Origin: an uncultured Clostridia bacterium
GTDB taxonomy: Bacteria; Bacillota; Clostridia; Oscillospirales; Acutalibacteraceae
Direction of reading: 5' to 3'
DNA: 64,000 bases
Assembly (NCBI GenBank): GCA_944384905.1
Contig: CALWVE010000006.1
Location: 47,247 to 111,246, forward strand
Shown here: one piece after another, positions 22,590 to 24,383 of the stretch
Layout: every line of letters starts with the position of its first letter
Position numbering within the stretch: position 1 is the stretch's first letter
Made by a program: the position numbers and the translations under genes
Notes under the pieces: generated by a model
The model's input: only the letters and a program-made list of their open reading frames with translations
The model's database searches: none
Told to the model about the DNA's origin: nothing

Positions 22590-22637
22590 ATAAAGGAAGA
22601 GCGCTGCCCTATCAACAGGGCAGCGCTCGAATTTTTT
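22590..22637. terminator. Strong bidirectional terminator
   Basis: A perfect 13-base stem, GAGCGCTGCCCTA(T) / (A)CAGGGCAGCGCTC (22599-22628), with a T-rich tract on each side (TTTTTT to the right, CTTCCTTTATTTT on the - strand). It ends the GH51 transcript from the left and the micro-ORF transcript from the right. Confidence 0.88.
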
Positions 22638-22788
22638 GTTTGCCATACAGGCTATTTCACCAAGTCCGAATATGTCATTCTGCGTTGCGTACAGGAAACA
22701 GGAAGATTAAAATCTTTAAACCTGTTGTGGACCCGGTGCCGATGTCCTTCTTTCGGCGCCTCCGCCGCGAAAGGGCTTCGGTGCCTGC

Positions 22789-22815
22789 TTACAGAATCAG
22801 TAGTCTACGCCTCAT
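22789..22815 (-). CDS. Micro-ORF 13 (MRRRLLIL)
   Basis: Last unit. GAGGA (22821-22825), five bases, ATG AGG, eight codons, TAA. It belongs to the MRxxLLI group. A long imperfect GC-rich hairpin follows, spanning about 22735-22785, whose outer arms have one mismatch. Confidence 0.6.
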   Translation of the reverse strand: MRRRLLIL

Positions 22816-22884
22816 AGTAGTCCTCACTCATCCATTAGATGGCTTTTTATGTTTGGCCCCTCCGGCTTTCGCTTTGGGGCCGGC

Positions 22885-22917
22885 TTAAAACTCCAGTAGT
22901 GGGATCCTTATCAACAT
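22885..22917 (-). CDS. Micro-ORF 12 (MLIRIPLLEF)
   Basis: GAGGAG (22926-22931), eight bases, ATG, ten codons, TAA. The peptide core RIPLL matches micro-ORFs 5 and 8. The trailing hairpin GGCCCC...GGGGCC with a GC-GAAA-GC tip (22855-22881) is of the micro-ORF 9-11 type, so this unit mixes two classes. Confidence 0.6.
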   Translation of the reverse strand: MLIRIPLLEF

Positions 22918-22987
22918 TGCATGAACTCCTCATTCATTGTGATAGTGGATCGTTTTTGGCCCCGCCGGTTTTCACCTTGGGACCGAC

Positions 22988-23017
22988 TCAATGTTCCAGT
23001 CTATGGAATTTTTTCAT
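22988..23017 (-). CDS. Micro-ORF 11 (MKKFHRLEH)
   Basis: GAAGGTG (23023-23029), ATG, nine codons, TGA. The trailing hairpin is GGTCCC...GGGGCC (22958-22984) with tip GGT-GAAA-ACC. It differs from micro-ORF 10 mainly in the last residue. Confidence 0.62.
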   Translation of the reverse strand: MKKFHRLEH

Positions 23018-23111
23018 TGTAACACCTTCAAATATTAGAAAGGAAGAAAATTACGAACAATTTCATGAAGTTTTTGTTTATGGCCCCTCCGGCTTTCGCT
23101 TCGGGACCGGC

Positions 23112-23141
23112 TCAATATTCCAGTCTATGGAATCTTTTCAT
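23112..23141 (-). CDS. Micro-ORF 10 (MKRFHRLEY)
   Basis: GAGGA (23150-23154), eight bases, ATG, nine codons, TGA. The trailing hairpin is GGTCCC...GGGGCC (23082-23108) with tip GC-GAAA-GC. Confidence 0.62.
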   Translation of the reverse strand: MKRFHRLEY

Positions 23142-23221
23142 AAGCACAATCCTCAAAATCATGAAAGAAAGATTGAAAATTCAGGCTTCAGGCCCCGCCG
23201 GTTTTATACCTTGGGACCGAC

Positions 23222-23251
23222 TCAATATTCCAGTCTGTGAAACTTCTTCAT
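23222..23251 (-). CDS. Micro-ORF 9 (MKKFHRLEY)
   Basis: GAGGA (23259-23263), seven bases, ATG, nine codons, TGA. The trailing hairpin is GGTCCC...GGGGCC (23191-23218). An extra ~110 bases separate this unit from micro-ORF 8; they hold a small GACCTG/CAGATC hairpin but no further frame with a ribosome site. Confidence 0.62.
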   Translation of the reverse strand: MKKFHRLEY

Positions 23252-23419
23252 AGATAAATCCTCGGTTTGTGACCGCTCTTGAAAAAGTTTTTCTTACTTT
23301 CTATATGATCTGCAAGGCAGGTCAAAATCAAAAGAAAAATTCAGGTCATCAAACAAACGATGTTGTTTTTTTGGTCTGCTTTACGTTTTGCGGTTCCGCA
23401 GTTTTCACCCGGAACCGGC

Positions 23420-23446
23420 TTACTGAATCAGAAGCGGAATCCTCAT
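23420..23446 (-). CDS. Micro-ORF 8 (MRIPLLIQ)
   Basis: GAGGTA (23452-23457), five bases, ATG AGG, eight codons, TAA. The trailing hairpin GGTTCC...GGAACC (23392-23416) begins three bases after the stop. Confidence 0.65.
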   Translation of the reverse strand: MRIPLLIQ

Positions 23447-23517
23447 GAAATTACCTCAGTCATCCCATCGATCACTATTCTTCTTTCAGGCTTACACGGC
23501 TTTTTGAAAGCCGCTTA

Positions 23518-23544
23518 TCAAAGCAAGAGAAGTTTGATCCTCAT
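23518..23544 (-). CDS. Micro-ORF 7 (MRIKLLLL)
   Basis: GAGGTA (23551-23556), six bases, ATG AGG, eight codons, TGA. The trailing hairpin is CGGCTTT...AAGCCG (23497-23513), different in sequence from those of its neighbours. Confidence 0.62.
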   Translation of the reverse strand: MRIKLLLL

Positions 23545-23616
23545 ACGCGATACCTCGAAGTTCTTACCAAACAGTTCATCCGTTTTCTGGTTCCGCAGCT
23601 TTCGCCCGGAACCGGC

Positions 23617-23643
23617 TTACTGAATCAGAAGTCGAACCCTCAT
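23617..23643 (-). CDS. Micro-ORF 6 (MRVRLLIQ)
   Basis: GAGGTA (23649-23654), five bases, ATG AGG, eight codons, TAA. The trailing hairpin is GGTTCC...GGAACC (23589-23613) with tip GC-GAAA-GC. Confidence 0.65.
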   Translation of the reverse strand: MRVRLLIQ

Positions 23644-23737
23644 TTTATTACCTCTGTCTTAATGGCAAGTTATCGATTTCTAAACGAAAACTTTTTAAGC
23701 TCTTTGAATCGCCTTTGGCTGATTCAAGAGAGCGATC

Positions 23738-23764
23738 CTAGCGAATCAGAAGCGGGATCCTCAT
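23738..23764 (-). CDS. Micro-ORF 5 (MRIPLLIR)
   Basis: GAGGTC (23773-23778), eight bases, ATG AGG, eight codons, TAG. The trailing hairpin is long: GCTCT and TTGAATC arms pair with GATTCAA and GAGAGC (23699-23733). Confidence 0.63.
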   Translation of the reverse strand: MRIPLLIR

Positions 23765-23834
23765 AATCAATCGACCTCAAACAAATCGGTTTGTCTGTTT
23801 CAGGCTTCCGCAGCCTTTCGACCCGGAAGCCGGC

Positions 23835-23861
23835 TTACTGAACCAGTAAGTGCATCCTCAT
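23835..23861 (-). CDS. Micro-ORF 4 (MRMHLLVQ)
   Basis: GAGGTG (23869-23874), seven bases, ATG AGG, eight codons, TAA. The ribosome site lies in the loop of an AATCA/TGATT hairpin (23866-23884). The trailing hairpin is GGCTTCC...GGAAGCC (23803-23831). Confidence 0.65.
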   Translation of the reverse strand: MRMHLLVQ

Positions 23862-23961
23862 ATTCAATCACCTCATCGATGATTTGTAAACATATTCATT
23901 TTTAGGGCGGCTCGTTTGTTTGACCTCTCCACCCCTGTCAACAAAAGGCTTTGAGGTCGGC

Positions 23962-23988
23962 TTAAAGAATCAATAGCCTTTTCCTCAT
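23962..23988 (-). CDS. Micro-ORF 3 (MRKRLLIL)
   Basis: GAGGTG (23995-24000), six bases, ATG AGG, eight codons, TAA. The ribosome site lies in the loop of a GAATC/GATTC hairpin (23991-24009). The trailing hairpin has outer arms GACCTC/GAGGTC (23922-23958). Confidence 0.65.
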   Translation of the reverse strand: MRKRLLIL

Positions 23989-24012
23989 CTGAATCACCTC
24001 ATGCGATTCTTT

Positions 24013-24051
24013 TTAGACGGATCTCTTTTGCGAACAAGCTAATTGGAACAC
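24013..24051 (-). CDS. Micro-ORF 2 (GTG start, 12 residues)
   Basis: AAGGAG (24058-24063), six bases, GTG, twelve codons, TAA. The peptide (M)FQLACSQKRSV is a shortened relative of micro-ORF 1. The only hairpin before the next unit is the one that holds the ribosome site of micro-ORF 3. Confidence 0.58.
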   Translation of the reverse strand: MFQLACSQKRSV

Positions 24052-24096
24052 TGGAATCTCCTTCTTTCCATTTGCTTTTCCGTTTGGATCTCATCT

Positions 24097-24141
24097 TTAC
24101 ACCAGATGGATCTTCTTTTGGGAACAAGATAAATGGAACAT
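24097..24141 (-). CDS. Micro-ORF 1 (14 residues)
   Basis: First unit of the transcript. AAGGAG (24148-24153), six bases, ATG, fourteen codons (MFHLSCSQKKIHLV), TAA. A CATCT/AGATG hairpin (24092-24108) has the stop codon in its loop. Confidence 0.6.
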   Translation of the reverse strand: MFHLSCSQKKIHLV

Positions 24142-24203
24142 TGGAATCTCCTTCTTTCCTTTTCTTGTTGTTCTTGTTTTATCCATCTCTCTTTTGTGAC
24201 TAT

Positions 24204-24232
24204 ATGATAGCATAGTGCCTACAAATTGTCAA
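24204..24232 (-). promoter_or_regulatory. Strong promoter of the micro-ORF array
   Basis: On the - strand TTGACA (24227-24232), 17-base spacer, TATCAT (24204-24209), preceded by A/T-rich tracts (24240-24310) that resemble an UP element. The start site is near 24197, about 55 bases before the first micro-ORF. The remaining AT-rich bases to 24383 show nothing else I can support. Confidence 0.82.
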
Positions 24233-24383
24233 CAGGTTTAAAGATGTTTTTTGTTTAAATCACCAAGTTTGACTTTTTGCACAGACAAAAAACATAAAAA
24301 AATTAGCAACGAACAATTAACTGTGCACCTAGCACAAAAAAGCGCATTATTTTAGCTGTAACATCGGCACTTATTTTCTCGCA

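Follow-up and report, generated by a model that had tools for sequence, protein, structure and literature searches.

What is the role of 1.6 kb of bacterial DNA in which a strong predicted promoter and an intrinsic terminator enclose thirteen ribosome-binding sites and no normal gene? The question is raised by positions 22590-24232, minus strand, of a 64,000-nucleotide stretch (the window) from the genome of an uncultured Clostridia bacterium of the family Acutalibacteraceae (genome G000). The array found there consists of 13 micro-open reading frames (micro-ORFs) of 8-14 codons, each preceded by a Shine-Dalgarno (SD) sequence. We propose that the array is a stand-alone RNA gene, and that its predicted RNA catches ribosomes, making them start, stop and restart without a useful product; this joint explanation is the one we favor, although we put its chances somewhat below even. 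The sequences do establish the layout of the units, its conservation, the exchange of start, stop and second codons, the strong predicted promoter and terminator, and the lack of a recognizable protein gene. Across the family, ribosome loading and quick release, more than the peptides, look to be what has been selected.

The array in the window

An initial annotation, made from the sequence alone, had described 13 SD-equipped micro-ORFs with their peptides, and all were recovered. Twelve begin with ATG; unit 2 uses GTG instead. The repeated peptide groups were likewise confirmed: MR(x)(x)LL occurs in eight units (unit 12 included), MK(K/R)FHRLE(Y/H) in three and FxLxCSQK in two. The start of unit 12 is uncertain, as ATA occupies the position that corresponds to the other starts, and an ATG lies two codons upstream; a 3-codon MQC frame starts close by, at 22922. 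The strong promoter that had been claimed is near consensus, matching it at 11 of 12 positions, and the claimed terminator is predicted as a stem of 13 pairs. The features, in the order of the predicted transcript, are as follows.

24204..24232, minus: predicted promoter TTGACA-17-TATCAT, with TG before the -10 box; resembles that of locus L048 in another genus
24142..24203, minus: A-rich leader (ACAAAAGAGAGAT...) and first extended SD; homologous to L048
24097..24141, minus: micro-ORF 1, MFHLSCSQKKIHLV; its SD, GAAAGAAGGAGATTCC, is also present before a unit of genome G060
24013..24051, minus: micro-ORF 2, VFQLACSQKRSV, GTG start
23962..23988, minus: micro-ORF 3, MRKRLLIL
23835..23861, minus: micro-ORF 4, MRMHLLVQ
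23803..23831, minus: hairpin past the unit 4 stop
23738..23764, minus: micro-ORF 5, MRIPLLIR
23617..23643, minus: micro-ORF 6, MRVRLLIQ
23589..23613, minus: hairpin past the unit 6 stop
23518..23544, minus: micro-ORF 7, MRIKLLLL
23420..23446, minus: micro-ORF 8, MRIPLLIQ
23392..23416, minus: hairpin past the unit 8 stop
23222..23251, minus: micro-ORF 9, MKKFHRLEY
23191..23218, minus: hairpin past the unit 9 stop
23112..23141, minus: micro-ORF 10, MKRFHRLEY
23082..23108, minus: hairpin past the unit 10 stop, placed by alignment; the unit folded alone gives another structure
22988..23017, minus: micro-ORF 11, MKKFHRLEH
22958..22984, minus: hairpin past the unit 11 stop
22885..22917, minus: micro-ORF 12, MLIRIPLLEF, start uncertain
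22855..22881, minus: hairpin past the unit 12 stop
22789..22815, minus: micro-ORF 13, MRRRLLIL
22640..22788, minus: predicted folded 3' domain (z -4.6 for 22590-22830, terminator included)
22599..22628, minus: intrinsic terminator stem, 13 pairs

Under a strict unit rule (five-base SD, ATG, frame of 7-14 codons) the array holds 12 units, whereas 500 dinucleotide shuffles average 0.57 and never exceed 3. By the same rule its opposite strand has none, and other equal-length, non-overlapping stretches of the 64 kb (steps of 100, both strands) have at most one each. A pattern of SD, ATGAGG, six free bases and two Leu codons gave seven matches in the 2.19-Mb assembly, all within the array, and its reversed control gave none. 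The excess over shuffles and over other stretches, together with the confinement of the unit pattern to the array, therefore indicates that the array is real. The absence of a normal gene also held up: the longest minus-strand frame from stop to stop is 59 codons, and four plus-strand ORFs (62-133 amino acids) inside the stretch matched no Pfam family. A search of the array with Rfam gave nothing at the gathering score, and at a relaxed E-value nine weak matches (E 2.4 to 9.4).

Relatives of the array

Searches for relatives covered 235 to 398 genomes each. When the whole stretch was compared by blastn with 398 genomes of the family, one clear match outside its genus was obtained, L048, whose promoter, leader and first SD align at 79% identity (E 5.3e-10, computed for one genome); no other outside match had E below 6.9e-4. 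Judging from this alignment, the window locus shares a homologous promoter and leader with L048, the one family locus to which this test was applied. L048 has no protein gene between promoter and terminator. Its first frame is 20 codons long, and near its 3' end stands AAAGGTGAGTCCA-ATG-AAA-TAA, a two-codon frame that is also present in the other three of the four genomes compared from this genus, with three in tandem in G265. In this genus the locus is divergent from a DUF1292 gene with a 6S RNA nearby (in G068 the 6S score is just below the gathering score).

The pattern GGTGAGTCCAATGARATRA, with one mismatch allowed, gave 16 matches in 14 of the 398 family genomes and 9 of 135 genera, against 3 for the reversed control; two of the 16 (L088 and L091) were judged by their context to be chance. 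A freer pattern, GGTGAGTCCNRTGNNNTRR, gave 22 matches among 235 genomes of the order, spread over 19 genomes and 13 of 123 genera, and none in reverse, and although it permits TGG in place of a stop codon, TGG occurred in just one of the 22. Four of these matches (L142, L150, L158 and L159) were judged to be chance, and L144 and L151 were neither accepted nor rejected and were omitted from the 65-site test described below. Beyond the order, at the class level, 2 of 208 genomes matched, with one and the same sequence in both, which was judged unrelated.

The family unit is a very strong SD (GGUGA-N-UCC-N) followed by AUG or GUG and, after one or two variable codons, by a stop. Many family loci combine strong promoters with several units and no gene, and others, such as those of f14, have one unit. 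The relatives encode formylmethionine (fMet) dipeptides, among them fMet-Lys, fMet-Tyr and fMet-Arg: the units of G060 read MK, VK, MR, MA, MYK and MDQQS, and those of G475 read MCLDEPIGQIRMVRAQGSIR, MYR, MK, MYT, MK and MI, each followed by a stop. Longer frames occur in the relatives too, as first ORFs of 17-25 codons. In L075, L077, L126, L133 and L155-L157 the beginning of this first peptide is similar within each genus, as MY-DE- or, for three genomes of f26, MDSE-TARYH, and it is possibly a regulatory leader peptide.

Rfam scans of 26 relative loci returned, at the gathering score, only 6S, tRNA, rRNA and Gut-1 RNA, none of them within an array. In L129 (2603-2784; G381) a tRNA and a Gut-1 RNA (RF01706) adjoin the array. 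The genes downstream vary from genus to genus in the relatives examined; an MreB gene (PF06723; L147, 2-1015) follows an f14 locus, and an f26 locus contains an NFACT-domain gene (PF05833; L152, 3-1274), presumably of the RqcH type.

Several other leads were abandoned. Peptide-based patterns run against viral contigs gave no match, apart from one chance match inside a phage gene, and blastn against phages and plasmids gave one 45-base match (E 0.04) and none, respectively. The neighboring GH43 gene, used as a guide in genome contigs, led to one distant locus with no micro-ORF cluster. Explanations by integron-like cassettes, by type III antitoxin repeats or by microcin C-like genes were set aside because no integrase, toxin or modification gene was present among ten neighboring ORFs.

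Conservation of starts followed by immediate stops

The position of the stop codon was examined at GG-N2-7-NCC-N-RTG sites that do not match the search pattern (65 sites in 32 loci, with 122 control sites). A stop falls within three codons at 42 of the 65 sites and 7 of the 122 controls (Fisher 5e-18), and after exactly two codons at 27 sites and no control (Fisher 5e-15); these figures overstate the significance, since many of the sequences are related and were treated as independent. When the units matching the search pattern are included, 75 short units are available, with ATG in 64 and GTG in 11; two are one-codon frames. Their stops are TAA (52), TAG (14) and TGA (9), and 16 different sense codons occupy the second position, TAC, AAA and AGA being the commonest. 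By these counts the layout is kept across the family while the start codon, the type of stop and codon 2 vary.

The units are more conserved than the rest of their loci in 15 of 19 pairwise comparisons. The fractions for units and rest are 0.98/0.49 in g36, 0.95/0.46 in g90 and 1.00/0.79 in g94; 0.88/0.50, 0.81/0.35 and 0.76/0.33 in g77; 0.45/0.21, 0.54/0.27 and 0.68/0.53 in g61; and 1.00/0.95, 0.97/0.78 and 0.97/0.77 in f26b. Two f26a pairs (1.00/0.97 and 0.99/0.80) and one f14 pair (1.00/0.87) complete the list. The earlier argument that conservation points to translation thus gains from the relatives, which keep start and stop positions through ATG/GTG and TAA/TAG/TGA exchanges while their flanks are less conserved in these comparisons.

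The motif upstream of the start resembles the complement of the 16S rRNA 3' tail with one extra base (GGUGA-N-UCC). The tail sequence GGATCACCTCCTTTCT was found in one of 20 genomes, G559, in a locus that Rfam calls small-subunit rRNA. Predicted pairing with the tail averages -14.7 kcal/mol for 15 hand-picked family units (18-23 bases) and reaches -13.9 to -16.8 kcal/mol for window units 1-4; the mean is -8.8 kcal/mol for the 13 window starts in the ORF list and -5.2 kcal/mol for random 20-mers. We also scored 62 G.GAGTCC motifs in 29 loci, having dropped L096, L101 and L114, which were found through DUF1292 alone. An ATG or GTG stands at the expected place in 50 of the 62, and 45 of these 50 frames stop within three codons.

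Association with DUF1292 and 6S RNA

Family loci are often divergent from DUF1292 and 6S RNA, and a 6S RNA lies near DUF1292 in many of them (L124-L139, L141, L152, L155 and L074-L077). Among 30 loci ranked by DUF1292 score alone, nine carry divergent units, and the DUF1292 loci hold 17 units in 44 kb, whereas 123 kb of control sequence holds 2. G076 and G194, which are among these nine genomes, also contributed to other tests; L100, L103, L104 and L115 were counted in this test only, and the orientation of L100 was assigned by an uncertain rule. The f14 loci showed no such link, and G205 (g94) has its DUF1292 locus and its array on different contigs. No 6S match was obtained inside the window array or inside the arrays of the relatives scanned with Rfam.

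The window array as a member of the family

Units 1 and 2 of the window fit the extended-SD unit GG..NCC-N-RTG (as GGAGATTCC-A-RTG) and have the 16 bases of GAAAGAAGGAGATTCC in common with G060; units 3-13 lack the TCC part, and it is possible that they arose by convergence. The window frames are 8-14 codons long, not the two or three codons of family units. Unlike many relatives, the array is not divergent from DUF1292 beside a 6S RNA; in G000 these are on contig C27, with no array there. We read the window array as a derived, expanded and moved copy of the family locus. Two 19-base inverted repeats (22709-22727 and 24230-24248; 95% complementary, with 1502 bases between the arms) flank the array, one of them overlapping the -35 box, and may be connected with its relocation from the DUF1292 site. 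A GH43-like gene and a phosphofructokinase gene, the product of the latter 90% identical to one from a 'Clostridia bacterium', lie upstream in the same orientation, and the array terminator is followed by a convergent arabinofuranosidase gene, read from the other side.

Signals of both peptide and RNA are present inside the window. The amino-acid likeness of the units exceeds that of column permutations in the MR..LL class (P 0.0055) and the MKxFHRLE class (P 0.005); the excess at third positions is weak by itself (P 0.10 and 0.07, respectively). The Arg of the MR motif is AGG in 8 of 8 units; among the 77 Arg codons of four nearby genes, AGG accounts for 3.9%. Because so rare a codon is used in all eight, a nucleotide-level constraint may act on the motif besides the peptide.

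A hairpin model of seven window units has 92% of its cells paired. Three of its pairs are changed on both sides, a number reached by 163 of 500 shuffles; its covariation score is 0.386, against 0.236 in shuffles, and while one shuffle in 500 reached it, slid controls never did. Hairpins after window stops have a mean z of -2.1 (13 units), and the final 241 bases of the predicted RNA (22590-22830) fold strongly. Past the stops of relatives no general hairpin is seen: over 58 units in 25 loci the mean z is -0.68 there and -0.44 upstream. Hence the hairpin, though supported in the window, was discarded as the core of the system. The covariance-model search for the unit that the initial annotation had suggested did find its own array and gave nothing convincing outside it. 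The model of the seven units (R1) recovered nothing but that array in searches of 60 and 1 genomes, and in 398 genomes (E <= 0.5) it matched 81 including G000, with a best outside E of 2.9e-4, which fits chance; nine matched loci (L010-L018) were scanned, and these nine contain no array.

A possible ribosome-idling RNA

How might such an RNA act? It would be transcribed abundantly, and 30S subunits would be held by long pairing with the 16S tail. The 70S ribosome would then terminate after one codon or a few and re-initiate readily, the net effect being a sink or buffer for initiating ribosomes, or for initiator tRNA. In the window species the units would have grown to 8-14 codons and increased in number to 13, and most stops are followed by a hairpin. 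A physical basis for ribosome idling is provided by published minigenes and strong-SD protection: on a two-codon frame with a strong SD, ribosomes can start again and drop peptidyl-tRNA (PMC8708949), and ribosomes on strong SDs protect RNA (PMC3997798, PMC8708949). Of the three roles put forward initially, ribosome loading more than peptides fits best, since the relatives encode variable dipeptides.

Several observations weigh against this explanation. The strict pattern is found in just those 14 family genomes, and most genomes have no recognizable units; the locus is thus not essential, or often too diverged to be seen. Likewise, 21 of the 30 DUF1292 loci show no units. The 13-unit form was seen once, in G000, the sole genome of its genus compared, and window units 5-13 have SDs of ordinary strength (-6.1 to -10.1 kcal/mol). 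The search for the 16S tail gave no match in the other 19 of the 20 genomes, G000 included. In four of the 19 comparisons the units do not stand out: g69 (0.29/0.41; here the unit was misplaced in the alignment); the f26a pair G475-G445 (0.80/0.81); and two f14 pairs (0.85/0.84 and 0.85/0.85), where one of the two sites resembles a chance match to the rule and the 'rest' takes in part of the next gene. The likeness of the window peptides and the similar first ORFs within genera suggest some peptide role. Finally, 5 of the 50 started G.GAGTCC motifs have no stop within the 24 bases examined, and 12 of the 62 have no start codon, with AAG in six and CCT or CCG in six (two each in three related f26 genomes).

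The SD-like motif is therefore under selection by itself, as it is kept in these 12 cases. All six AAG motifs retain a stop in frame with the AAG, at codon 3 or codon 4; units with AAG for ATG are found in L079 (= L127), L080 (= L130), L082 (= L141), L083 and L084. With this reserve, the outcome that had been named as fatal to the array, relatives that keep the hairpins and lose the starts and frames, is the reverse of what the relatives show.

Alternative explanations

The start-less units count in favor of the alternative that we rank highest, which we nevertheless consider unlikely. Here the SD motifs would be stabilizers, with parked ribosomes shielding a long untranslated RNA that acts through other parts, such as a folded 3' domain. 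A strong SD, even without a start codon, stabilizes Bacillus mRNAs (PMC3997798), and the SD of a mini-ORF protects an E. coli mRNA (PMC8708949); the window RNA does have a predicted folded 3' domain, and the spacers of f26 and f14 are well conserved. However, the spacers drift in g36, g77 and g90 (no search was made for a common spacer fold), and stabilization leaves the kept starts and immediate stops unexplained.

It is somewhat less likely again that the peptides themselves are the product, as signals or toxins made in bulk. The amino-acid likeness of the two window peptide classes would be accounted for, as would the similar first ORFs within genera (MYDETDSQ/MYDENDSQ in g77, MDSEQTARYH/MDSESIARYH in f26). 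Dipeptides with a variable second residue in the relatives speak against it, as does the result of Pfam and NCBIfam searches, which detected no export or processing gene among the ten neighboring ORFs. The peptide role originally offered is accordingly disfavored for the family while staying possible for the window species.

Toxicity could instead reside in the act of translation: two-codon frames with strong SDs would release peptidyl-tRNA and deplete tRNAs, serving as an inducible growth brake. Toxicity is reported to be greatest with two-codon frames, with strong SDs and with UAA stops (PMC8708949), and UAA accounts for 52 of the 75 family stops. We regard this as improbable, however, given the diversity of codon 2, window ORFs in the less toxic range of 8-14 codons, and promoters close to the housekeeping consensus, which would argue against tight induction.

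If translation were incidental, the SD-like motifs could be a sponge that titrates a C-rich small RNA, or several of them, or else an RNA-binding protein. Stops of all three types at codon 3 are unexpected for a sponge, and the motif varies (GGAGAUUCC, GGUGUUACC) yet still resembles the complement of the 16S tail; we give the idea little credence, even though GGUGAGUCC is retained without a start codon and an sRNA (small RNA) sponge is reported from Bacillus (PMC8216469). The tandem leader in cis, also among the roles first suggested, has hardly any prospect of being right: the minigenes described to date do act on the next gene (PMC8708949), but there is no co-directional gene ahead of the array terminator, which is followed by a convergent gene, and the downstream genes of the relatives differ by genus.

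Comparison with known systems

Ribosome idling would have an analogy in 6S RNA (RF00013), the near neighbor of the family locus in many relatives and itself a global decoy. The array has no 6S match, and its proposed target is the ribosome rather than RNA polymerase. That the family is a new class, a dedicated ribosome-idling RNA made of strong starts with an immediate stop, translation's counterpart of 6S and often encoded beside it, is a tentative proposal to which we give slightly less weight than to ribosome capture as such. If the RNA does hold ribosomes, bacteria would regulate free ribosomes by a decoy RNA as they do polymerase by 6S, and the family would offer a natural system for the study of initiation, termination, recycling and drop-off on minimal ORFs. 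Sponge RNAs of the CsrB/RsmZ type resemble the array in having a repeated short motif in an RNA without a long ORF; the array's motif, however, resembles the 16S-tail complement and carries start and stop codons.

What appears to be selected is a repeated message, 'start here, stop at once', which is present across several families of a single order. The array RNA and its family fit no described class found in the Rfam scans or the searched open-licence literature. Upstream-ORF and noncoding motifs in passages of PMC8632094 and PMC2864571 are none of the array's form. Dual-function RNAs such as yfr6 (PMC2864571) are likewise short RNA loci with a small ORF, but yfr6 has one conserved ORF where the array has repeated minimal ORFs. 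STAB-SD elements and ribosome-protected 5' leaders, as described in PMC3997798, share the strong SD, sometimes without a start codon; here there are several SDs along the RNA, most with a start and a stop, and no coding region to protect. Similar in layout are the leader minigenes (axe-txe mg2, the ycbK mini-ORFs and the LEE4 mini-ORF; PMC8708949), which also join an SD to an ORF of two to six codons and in which layout likewise counts over peptide. They stand as one or two copies in cis before a gene, whereas the loci described here have up to 13 copies in a predicted stand-alone locus with its own terminator.

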